Assembly: GCF_001294535.1 (NCBI RefSeq)
Contig: NZ_LGIC01000065.1
Location: forward strand, 186,001-250,000
Source: Cypionkella psychrotolerans
GTDB taxonomy: Bacteria > Pseudomonadota > Alphaproteobacteria > Rhodobacterales > Rhodobacteraceae
DNA length: 64,000 bases
Reading direction: 5' to 3'
Shown here: positions 15,009-18,150 of the stretch, piece by piece
Layout of the letters: the number at the start of each line of letters is the position of its first letter
Position numbering within the stretch: the stretch's first letter is position 1
The notes under the pieces: model-generated
Database searches by the model: none
Told to the model about the DNA's origin: nothing
The model's input: only the letters and a program-made list of their open reading frames with translations
Program-made: the position numbers and the translations under genes

Positions 15009-15497
15009 TTAACTGTCAGTCAGCGCCAGCAAAGCCGCTTGGGTTTCCGGCGAAAAGCTTTCAAGCCCTTCGGTCAGATCGTGCAGATCATCGACAATCT
15101 GGGCAATCTCGGCGCGCTCGGCGGCGGTGAACTCCGGCCCAGTTTTGGTCACGCCCGCGATGGTGCGCGAGGTTTGCGGCCCCACCGCATAGGTACAGCC
15201 GTTGTGCAGCCCATGCGCCAGCGCGTCACGGATGACGCCTTGCGGGTCTTGATCGGCGAGGTCCGCCCAGTTGACAGCACCTGTATGCGTCAGCCCCCAA
15301 TGCACGACCGGGTCGCTGAGCATGAACCCGCGCTCGCTGTAGTGCTCAATCCACGCCTGATCATAGGTTCTGTACAAGATCGAAGGGCGCGTGTAGCGGA
15401 TGTGGATCGCCAGAGCAAAGCCACTGTCGCAGAGCGCCCGCAGCCGGGCTAAGCGTTCTGCAACTGCAGCCACTTTCGTCATATCCTTCACGATCAC
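15009..15497 (-). CDS. LuxR-type autoinducer-binding domain protein without DNA-binding domain
   Basis: A 162-residue cytosolic protein that is only an autoinducer-binding (PF03472-type) domain. The pocket residues that define acyl-homoserine-lactone receptors are all present: W and Y in AWIEHY, D and P in LSDPVVHW, W in GAVNWADL and G in AHGLHNGCTYAVG. After the domain (about residue 150) the protein ends; no helix-turn-helix follows and the 3' sequence shows no decayed one. It lies divergently, 102 bases from luxR. By analogy with TrlR, a TraR lacking its DNA-binding part that blocks TraR as a heterodimer, it may titrate signal or receptor; this is inference. The GTG at 15497 and an ATG at 15482 are both possible starts. 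Confidence 0.75.
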   Translation of the reverse strand: MIVKDMTKVAAVAERLARLRALCDSGFALAIHIRYTRPSILYRTYDQAWIEHYSERGFMLSDPVVHWGLTHTGAVNWADLADQDPQGVIRDALAHGLHNGCTYAVGPQTSRTIAGVTKTGPEFTAAERAEIAQIVDDLHDLTEGLESFSPETQAALLALTDS

Positions 15498-15599
15498 TCA
15501 CCCTTTGGATGCTAGAGGTTGCGAATTACACTTTATCCGGGCAATATCTACGAGACGAGGCTATGACGTGGTAGAGCCCTCGGCAACTGTTTTGAGCAT

Positions 15600-16211
15600 A
15601 TGACACTTCTGCAGGCGATGAAAAATCAGATCGAACATATAGCCCCGGCGGGTTCTTATGTCGCTTTGCGGGTTGGGTTCTCATTTCCTGAGGAGGAGAT
15701 GAACAATCTGCCTGACATATGGGTGGAGTTTTACACAACCCATGGCTTAGTTGTGCAGGATCCGGCGATGCGCTGGGTGTATGGCAATGTCGGTGGCATC
15801 CGGTTCTCGGAAATGGCCGCGACCGATCCGCATCAGGTGCGCGCCCATGCCGCGGTGTTCGGCTTGGGTCATGGCGCTGCGGTGTCGGTGATGACGCCAC
15901 GGGACAAGGGCCGACGCAGCTACGGGCTGTTTTTCCGCGATGACCGCGACTTTGAAGATGCCGAGATGGAGGGGCTGCTGCGAATCATGCAGCAGCTGCA
16001 TGCAGGCCCGGAGGATGAGAAAAGCCTCACAAATGCCGAGGTTGAGGCGCTGAAACTACAATCTGAGGGCTTGCGGCTGAAACAAATTGCCGCGCGGCTT
16101 GGAATTTCGGAAAGTGCTGTGAAAGCCCGGCTTAACAACGTCAAGCGTAAATTGGGCGCGCGGACACAATCCCAAGCGGCTTCGATCGCTGCTGCGCGGC
16201 GGATTCTTTAA
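15600..16211 (+). CDS. LuxR-family quorum-sensing transcriptional regulator
   Basis: A 203-residue regulator with an N-terminal autoinducer-binding domain (about 1-135) and a C-terminal GerE helix-turn-helix (LTNAEVEALKL...ISESAVKARLNNVKRKLG, about 140-200). Of the six usual signal-pocket residues, W and Y (IWVEFY), D-P (VQDPAMRW) and G (FGLGHGAAV) are kept, but the second Trp is Phe (GGIRFSEM), so ligand preference may be altered. It is slightly shorter than typical LuxR proteins (about 235). It lies 129 bases before luxI and very likely acts at the two dyads there. The neighbouring domain-only gene is divergent. Confidence 0.88.
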   Translation: MTLLQAMKNQIEHIAPAGSYVALRVGFSFPEEEMNNLPDIWVEFYTTHGLVVQDPAMRWVYGNVGGIRFSEMAATDPHQVRAHAAVFGLGHGAAVSVMTPRDKGRRSYGLFFRDDRDFEDAEMEGLLRIMQQLHAGPEDEKSLTNAEVEALKLQSEGLRLKQIAARLGISESAVKARLNNVKRKLGARTQSQAASIAAARRIL

Positions 16212-16244
16212 GCGCCGCTGATAATCCAGCAAATTTTAACTATT

Positions 16245-16280
16245 GCGACAGTCGCGCTAAATTTGCGGACTGTCGGCAAA
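16245..16280 (+). promoter_or_regulatory. Tandem GACnGTC dyads (candidate lux boxes) before luxI
   Basis: Two dyads share the core GACnGTC: GCGACAGTCGC centred on 16250, and TTTGCGGACTGTCGGCAAA centred on 16271 (symmetric apart from two bases and the centre). Centres are 21 bp apart, two helix turns, so two dimers would sit on the same DNA face. The second dyad is 60 bases before the luxI start, suitable for an activator site at the -35 region. Confidence 0.55.
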
Positions 16281-16340
16281 TACAACTTCCGGGGTATTGT
16301 CGCTGTATCAGAAACGATTCAGCATGTTTAGGAGTATCCT

Positions 16341-17015
16341 ATGGACAATATCCGCTTCGATTTTTCCGATTTCCATCGTTACGGTTCGGCATTTTACGAC
16401 TTTTTGGCTTTGCGCAAGCAGGTGTTTGTCGACCAACTCGGCTGGGATGTGCCGCATAATGCCAAGGTCGAAATGGACCAATATGACACGCCAGTGGCGC
16501 ATTACTCGTTGGTTTTAAGACACGGTCAGGTTGTAGGCGGCGCGCGCGCCATGGCCACGACCGCAACCTGGGGAGAGCATACCTATATGCTGCGCGATGC
16601 CTATTCCGGCAAGTTGCCGCATATTCCGTCGCATGTGATGTCGGTCGAAATCGCCACGCCGCATGTCTGGGAATGTACGCGGTTGGTGATCTCGGATGCG
16701 CTGACGACGGCGGCAGAGCGCAGCGAATGTCTGACCTTGATTGTGGACGGTTTGGTCGAAATCACCCGCGCGCAGGGCGGTGAGGAGTTGATTTGTCTCT
16801 CGTCACTGACCCTGATGCGGGCTTTGCGCCAGATCGGCTATGAAGTGTCGCGGCTGGGAGACACTTACCGCAATGATGAAGACGGGCGGCAATATGCGGT
16901 GCTGCGGATGCCGGCCGAATTCTCGCGTGCGCGGCAGTTGCGGGTCGCCCCGATCCCGTTCCCAGCCCATCGGCTGCGGGCAGAGCCGAGCTTCTTGCAG
17001 GGGGCGACGGCTTAG
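16341..17015 (+). CDS. Acyl-homoserine-lactone synthase, LuxI family
   Basis: A 224-residue synthase that makes acyl-homoserine lactone from S-adenosylmethionine and acyl carrier protein. All hallmark residues are visible: R, F and W in LRKQVFVDQLGW, the two Asp in EMDQYDTPVAHY, Arg in GGARAMA, and Glu and Arg in WECTRLVI. The acyl chain length cannot be told from sequence. The ATG at 16341 follows TAGGAG. It pairs with the upstream luxR and its promoter region carries two dyads, so positive autoregulation is likely. Gene symbol left blank because naming varies between strains. Confidence 0.92.
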   Translation: MDNIRFDFSDFHRYGSAFYDFLALRKQVFVDQLGWDVPHNAKVEMDQYDTPVAHYSLVLRHGQVVGGARAMATTATWGEHTYMLRDAYSGKLPHIPSHVMSVEIATPHVWECTRLVISDALTTAAERSECLTLIVDGLVEITRAQGGEELICLSSLTLMRALRQIGYEVSRLGDTYRNDEDGRQYAVLRMPAEFSRARQLRVAPIPFPAHRLRAEPSFLQGATA

Positions 17016-17289: not shown

Positions 17290-18150
17290 ATGAAACCAGA
17301 CCAGCCAACTCATGCCGCCCCTGCTGACGCAGAGGCGCGCAAAGCTGTAAAATCGGTGATCTGTTATCCGGTCTCGGGCCTGCCGCGGCCGGATCTGGCA
17401 CCCTATCTGGCGGCACGGGCCGGGTGGAGCAGGGTGGCCGAAGTGCTGGTGCCGGCGCGCGAGGCGCGGTGTTTTGATGTGCCTAGCGGGCATTTCTTTC
17501 GCATCACCAGCGTTGAGGGGCCGCAGGTGGGCGATCTCAATCTGTGGAACGCAGCAGACCTGAATGAGCGGTTTTTCTCGGGCAAAACCCGTGCGTTGCA
17601 CGGCACGCATCTGTCAGCGGGCGATCGGATGTGGTCGGCGCTGCCTTATCTGCGCGAGATGGCTCTGATCACCGAGGATACGCTGGACTGGTACGGGTTC
17701 GATGCGTTTGGCGGCAGCGTACATGACGTGATCGGCACGCGTTGTGATCCCTACACCAGCAATCTGCTGTCGGGCGGGCAGTATCATCATTGCTGCCATT
17801 CCAACCTGACGCGGGCGCTAGCCGCGCGCATGGGTCTGCCGCTGTGGCAGGCTGAAGCACATGTGCATGACGTGCTGAACGTGTTCATGTGTACCGGATT
17901 CACCCGCGACACCGGTCAGTATTTCATGAAAGCCAGCCCAGTGCGGCCCGGTGATTACATCGAGTTTTTCGCCGCGATGGACCTGATCGGCGGCCTGTCT
18001 GCCTGTCCCGGTGGTGATTGCTCGTCAGAGCATTCCTCGGATCAGGCGGCCTGTTATCCTCTGTTGGTTGAGGTGTTTAAGCCGTCGTCTTTGCCCGCAG
18101 GATGGCATCCGGCGGTGGCAAACGGCTATGACCGCAGTCACGGAGTTTAG
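17290..18150 (+). CDS. DUF1989 / urea carboxylase-associated family protein
   Basis: A 286-residue soluble protein of the DUF1989 family. Conserved stretches include GHFFRITSVEGPQVGDLNLWNA, LHGTHLSAGDRMWSALPY, HDVIGTRCDPYTS, CCHSNLTRALA, HVHDVLNVFMCTGF and the Cys/His-rich C-terminal ACPGGDCSSEHSSD, the last likely a metal site. Family members sit near urea carboxylase or aminomethyltransferase genes and are thought to act in guanidine/urea-type nitrogen metabolism; no such genes are next to it here, so its role is open. Start ATG at 17290 follows GAGAAAG. Confidence 0.8.
   Translation: MKPDQPTHAAPADAEARKAVKSVICYPVSGLPRPDLAPYLAARAGWSRVAEVLVPAREARCFDVPSGHFFRITSVEGPQVGDLNLWNAADLNERFFSGKTRALHGTHLSAGDRMWSALPYLREMALITEDTLDWYGFDAFGGSVHDVIGTRCDPYTSNLLSGGQYHHCCHSNLTRALAARMGLPLWQAEAHVHDVLNVFMCTGFTRDTGQYFMKASPVRPGDYIEFFAAMDLIGGLSACPGGDCSSEHSSDQAACYPLLVEVFKPSSLPAGWHPAVANGYDRSHGV

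Follow-up and report, generated by a model that had tools for sequence, protein, structure and literature searches.

The presence of a gene for an isolated LuxR autoinducer-binding domain (ABD) next to a luxR-luxI pair in Cypionkella psychrotolerans raises the question of whether the isolated domain restrains quorum sensing or takes part in sensing the signal. The locus lies in a 64,000-nucleotide stretch of contig NZ_LGIC01000065.1 (hereafter the window, to which all coordinates refer), from a genome of 5.08 Mb in 93 contigs. The initial annotation proposed that the ABD-only protein binds the LuxI product and either sequesters it or poisons LuxR dimers, acting as a quorum-sensing brake that sets a threshold.

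Anatomy of the locus and the ABD-only protein

The ABD-only gene (15009–15497, minus strand) encodes 162 residues and is read from a GTG start, with an alternative start possible a few codons inside. Its sole Pfam match at E values up to 1 is Autoind_bind (PF03472; E 1.4e-14; 54 bits, the cut-off being 23), and it contains no helix-turn-helix (HTH) domain. An intergenic region of 102 bp (15498–15599) is common to this gene and the adjacent, divergent luxR gene (15600–16211, plus strand), whose 203-residue product carries both Autoind_bind (PF03472; E 4.1e-9) and GerE (PF00196; E 2.3e-11) domains. Downstream of luxR, the luxI gene (16341–17015, plus strand) encodes a LuxI-type AHL synthase of 224 residues (Autoind_synth, PF00765; E 4.4e-14). 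The ABD-only protein, which is of the CerN type described below, is referred to as N, and its full-length LuxR partner, of the CerM type, as M. A convergent neighbour ends 6 bp past the N stop codon, and sdhB and a gene for a 195-aa product lie on the far side of the locus. A DUF1989 protein gene (17290–18150; E 7e-49) follows luxI and occurs likewise in locus L035; phmmer gave no match to it in L036. Two more ABD proteins are encoded in the genome, one a LuxR beside a LuxI (contig 52) and the other the product of a LuxR-type gene (contig 37). Among named genomes two relatives were found, the closer one (87%) in a Cypionkella MAG.

The initial annotation described an ABD with all six hallmark pocket residues and no HTH, and Pfam and the alignment agree on this. 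The pocket is formed by W49, Y53, D62, P63, W77 and G100, the last of which we read from the alignment as the counterpart of TraR G113. When 49 homologues of N were aligned over 173 columns, seven columns were invariant; six of these are the pocket W, Y, D, P, W and G, which are complete in 49/49 sequences, the window included. The AlphaFold2 model of the window protein has a mean pLDDT of 96.4 and a pTM of 0.91. Foldseek placed LuxR-type receptors (RhlR and SdiA) as its best PDB matches, with a best E of 1.6e-7 and a TM-score of about 0.6, and QscR, CviR, TraR and LasR ranked lower. The confidence of the model and the receptor matches argue that the frame is not a chance one.

The profile alignment of N with M spans the ABD and enters the start of the HTH domain of M, and at that point the model of window N has a helix (residues 150–161). 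Together, the alignment and the helix indicate that the C-terminal tail (15009–15050, minus strand), also covered by a tail alignment, is probably a retained first HTH helix. A loose S-I-x-x-T-H pattern ends 27/49 N sequences, of which at least L035 fits by chance, and TH occurs within the last 15 residues in 19/49. Because the ending is limited to 27/49 and is missing from both CerN and window N, it was dropped as a family-wide C-terminal mark.

Family distribution and relationship to CerN and CerM

A first search of 295 genomes of the family (Rhodobacteraceae) gave matches in 190, many of them full-length LuxRs. The loci of the best matches and 100 more regions were fetched, and their frames were classed by profile models built from those loci. 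After duplicates were dropped, 49 loci contained an ABD-only gene divergent from a LuxR; 48 are in distinct genomes among the 295, and the remaining one is from the Cypionkella MAG. Two of the 49 (L036 and L119) were added by hand, and the L119 frame is an over-long reading. A match to the LuxI model follows M in 44/49 cassettes, in four of them behind a second LuxR of the CerR type, and some of the loci end too early to show whether a LuxI follows.

The same 295 genomes were searched with an M profile. Scores showed a gap between 257 and 237 bits, and the genes above it were counted: 58 M genes in 56 genomes. N adjoins 56 of the 58, in 54/295 genomes, and is divergent in 53/58. Forty-eight of these M genes were already in the initial loci. 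Of the ten fetched in addition, five show the divergent arrangement, two carry N on the same strand downstream of luxI, one carries it immediately after M and two have no N. The same-strand arrangements are LuxR-LuxI-ABD-only in L206 and L207, with the ABD-only gene directly behind LuxR in L208; the M genes without an N neighbour are in L205 and L210. One case of N without a LuxR neighbour was seen (L061/L213). No N was present in the fetched loci of 76 distinct other LuxR genes (0/76; 79 rows), which sets this third LuxR group apart from M. The third group probably includes the GtaR/GtaI and LuxR1/LuxI1 types, which like the N/M locus contain a LuxR-LuxI pair and come from the same bacterial family (PMC11655674).

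In a wider draw of 385 genomes of the class, four matched at E ≤1e-10: the source genome of the window, another member of its family, and two genomes from other families that matched by short stretches. Among five plasmid matches that were opened, one from Qingshengfaniella (L216) has LuxR, LuxI and ABD genes on one strand and the only luxI; those from Limimaricola (L218) and Loktanella (L219) are divergent pairs with no luxI in view, and those from Yoonia (L214) and Limimaricola (L215) are lone genes whose products, at 207 and 205 aa, are of full LuxR length.

Locus L047 was identified from its sequence as cerN-cerM of Cereibacter sphaeroides. This identification is based on gene order (ABD-only, divergent LuxR, second LuxR, LuxI), on the only W57F among the 49 M proteins, on a Gln at residue 189 of M, as in PMC11655674, provided that translation starts at the ATG of codon 29, and on 1492 bp of its genome identical to a plasmid derived from C. 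sphaeroides 2.4.1. A careful tree was built from 67 ABDs, 25 of them N sequences (of 49). These N sequences form one clade (96/96) that includes C. sphaeroides N and window N, and the LuxRs beside N form another (100/100) that includes the M of L047. The branches of C. sphaeroides and of the window are sisters in both clades. The remaining LuxRs of the LuxR-LuxI type form the third group, which is weakly supported (63/48); this tree gives no firm branching order for the three groups. In a quick tree of 131 rows, M fell on one side of a branch (99), as did the third group (74); gathering all 49 N sequences required two changes, and the CerR-type rows joined inside N next to the N of L062. Support for a single N clade is thus good, if not unanimous between the two trees. 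Window N and M share 36% and 45% identity with their L047 counterparts, and the window pair is most likely, as judged from these relationships, of the CerN/CerM type with its own luxI.

Both loci encode an ABD-only protein whose WYDPWG pocket is complete, with a full-length LuxR as its neighbour and a luxI downstream; in both, the first two genes diverge, the orientation in C. sphaeroides being read from L047. They differ in that cerR and a cerI of a distant type lie behind cerM, whereas the window luxI directly follows the cerM-type gene. Six loci (L047, L051, L053, L058, L060 and L027) form one clade in which a second, very different LuxR of the CerR type lies behind the CerM-type gene. In the four of these with a LuxI in view, that LuxI is of the distant type (161–177 bits, against at least 241 in other cassettes).

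PMC11655674 compared C. sphaeroides with four other genomes and, in the text available, reported conserved synteny only for gtaR. A survey of luxRI topologies in 38 roseobacter genomes (PMC3824088) and a study of quorum sensing in a Phaeobacter prophage (PMC13345283) describe no ABD-only gene or protein in the portions available. LuxB (Dshi_4067) of Dinoroseobacter shibae resembles N in having no DNA-binding domain and in adjoining luxI3; it is unlike N in that the available text of PMC4046655 and PMC4886583 names no full-length LuxR beside it. Dinoroseobacter was sought in the plasmid records and was found neither in 39 records nor among the matches listed in a second search. A search for a printed report of a family-wide N/M pair turned up nothing but the paper on C. 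sphaeroides and a correction to it.

Proposed mode of action of the N/M pair

CerN of C. sphaeroides is an ABD with no HTH, and CerM carries W57F (PMC11655674, 2024). According to that study, pull-downs show a CerN-CerM interaction only when AHL is there. DNA binding by CerM does not require AHL and is weakened by CerN with AHL and, to a lesser degree in vitro, by AHL alone. CerN with AHL also relieves a CerM-repressed reporter. Deletion of cerN resembles deletion of the synthase: cerN and cerI mutants alike are severely impaired in swimming, and both recover it when cerM is deleted. The Discussion of the same paper adds GtaR of R. capsulatus as another regulator that is relieved by AHL.

Orthology leads us to expect the window pair to work like CerN/CerM, and we consider it likely that the locus encodes a split quorum-sensing receptor of this type with its own synthase. 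LuxI would make an AHL, and M would probably bind its operators without AHL and repress or activate there. N would bind AHL and then pair with M through the ABD; the resulting heterodimer would have a single DNA-binding domain in place of two and come off the DNA, and the M regulon would switch. N would in this way be a signal-sensing antagonist of an apo-active regulator. We infer this mechanism for the window, together with the geometry of the heterodimer, the AHL used and the target genes, from the one orthologous pair that has been studied, whose N is 36% and whose M is 45% identical to that of the window. The mechanism itself is already known from CerN/CerM, of which the window pair is an additional member.

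The initial proposal of a brake is affected in two ways. Its idea of poisoned LuxR dimers fits the AHL-dependent CerN-CerM complex, as reported in PMC11655674. The role as a brake or threshold setter is not supported, since in the studied system CerM binds DNA without AHL, CerN with AHL removes it, and CerN carries the signal response, its loss resembling loss of the synthase. N would be a brake on M, not on quorum sensing, and more likely enables the response of the cell to its signal than restrains it.

The Phe that the initial annotation noted at the second pocket Trp of the window LuxR (GGIRFSEM) is present in the sequence, at the position equivalent to W85, and differs from the W57F of CerM. 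The WYDPWG pocket is complete in 41/49 M proteins. W85F/I accounts for six of the others, all in one clade (Phe in the window, L035, L036, L007 and L008; Ile in L011), and W57F and a Gly-to-Ala change occur once each; the pocket is canonical in 79/79 other LuxR rows and 6/6 CerR-type rows. The Phe-for-Trp change of the window is one event in a six-locus clade and not a general trait of partner LuxRs. Pocket loss as a general sign of lost sensing in M is weakened accordingly, being confined to 8/49 rows and about three events. The direction of these changes fits relaxed sensing in M, as far as about three events can indicate. Because 41/49 M proteins keep all six residues, M may sense AHL too.

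Sensing by M is central to the strongest alternative, in which M needs AHL and N with AHL forms inactive heterodimers that raise the quorum threshold. The parts are the same, the canonical pocket in 41/49 M proteins leaves room for AHL binding, and in Agrobacterium TrlR, a LuxR-type protein without a DNA-binding domain, blocks full-length TraR in this manner through heterodimers (as told in PMC11655674 and PMC13043044). However, the characterised orthologous pair has the opposite sign: TraR needs AHL for DNA binding, and CerM does not. TrlR is also a recent copy of TraR, at 88% identity (PMC11655674), whereas N and M are partners of long standing that occur in many genera of a single family and share 21% identity in the window. 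This alternative is unlikely, and the parallel between TrlR and N is mechanistic only.

N could otherwise be a sink that sequesters or buffers AHL and leaves M untouched. In favour of this, conservation within N is highest in the pocket, which accounts for six of the seven invariant columns. A sink needs no LuxR partner of one type, yet N is tied to one LuxR subclass (56/58), and in C. sphaeroides CerN binds CerM (PMC11655674). N and M distances are also correlated (r 0.73; 49 pairs), and the partial r is 0.71 when another LuxR of the same genomes is the control (19 genomes; 0/999 permutations), a co-divergence that reflects linkage as well as interaction, since linkage alone can give part of it. 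We consider a simple sink improbable. More improbable still is a role for N mainly in keeping M folded or stable. Without cerN the level of CerM protein falls, and swimming is partly regained in the cerI cerN double mutant, both of which speak for stabilisation; against it, CerN with AHL weakens CerM-DNA complexes and relieves the CerM-repressed reporter (all PMC11655674).

That N is a fresh truncation or pseudogene of a LuxR has nothing in its favour beyond the absent HTH and is effectively refuted by 49 homologues of 141–170 aa after trimming, by the lack of any HTH remnant downstream of the N stop in the 49 loci (147 frames, ≤400 nt, HTH profile; best E 0.43), by dN/dS values of 0.10–0.16 among the three nearest N sequences and by the single N clade of the careful tree. 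The dN/dS values (NG86) were 0.157 for window-L035, 0.100 for window-L036 and 0.123 for L035-L036, with 0.224 for L036-L007; two other comparisons involving L007 had reached saturation. The initial annotation had named a remnant HTH among close relatives as evidence for decay, and its view that a preserved pocket argues against simple decay is borne out by these values and by the six residues kept in 49/49 sequences. Window N is also no recent truncated copy of its own LuxR, given 21% identity over the ABD and the separate N and M clades. By these sequence measures, N is old and preserved under purifying selection.

Extended to the family, the split-receptor reading leads to a more tentative proposal, which we rate slightly below an even chance. 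Rhodobacteraceae may possess a class of AHL system built on an obligate two-protein receptor, in which an ABD-only sensor with an invariant pocket acts on an apo-active LuxR that has given up the main sensing role and so can afford to lose residues of its pocket (W85F/I, W57F). The usual unit would be cerN-cerM-luxI, with a cerR-type gene added in C. sphaeroides and five related loci. If the CerN/CerM mode were family-wide, many small genes annotated only as ABDs would encode the part of a receptor that senses the signal, and a LuxR-LuxI pair of the CerM class could be neither understood nor used as a reporter without N. Deletion of N would be expected to abolish the quorum response, not to trigger a premature one. 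The 56 N/M pairs offer natural variation for mapping LuxR heterodimer specificity.

Intergenic regions

Between the divergent genes of the window, a promoter-like sequence, TTGCGA-17-CAATAT (15519–15547, plus strand), points towards luxR; it is a candidate by consensus match only and lies inside an AGTTG/GGTTG element. This element occurs towards luxR in 35/49 cassettes (shuffles: mean 11.4, highest 19) and in the opposite direction in 19/49 (mean 10.5, highest 16). Matches to a loosely defined promoter occur in 25/49 and 26/49 cassettes in the two directions, with shuffle means of about 10 and 9. The CerM motif TwTm(N6)GAC is absent from both intergenic regions of the window and from the cerN-cerM gap as well. 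A 21-bp dyad about 60 bp before luxI (16261–16281) was not taken as an operator, because 5/300 shuffles equalled it and it scores lower in L035, L036, L007 and L008. An inverted repeat, CTCTCC-n2..6-GGAGA, is absent from the window and occurs just before the luxI start in 9/44 cassettes (L028, L038, L041, L042, L049, L056, L077, L135 and L136), compared with 0/200 shuffled sets. The repeat includes the likely luxI Shine-Dalgarno sequence and could hide the luxI ribosome site.
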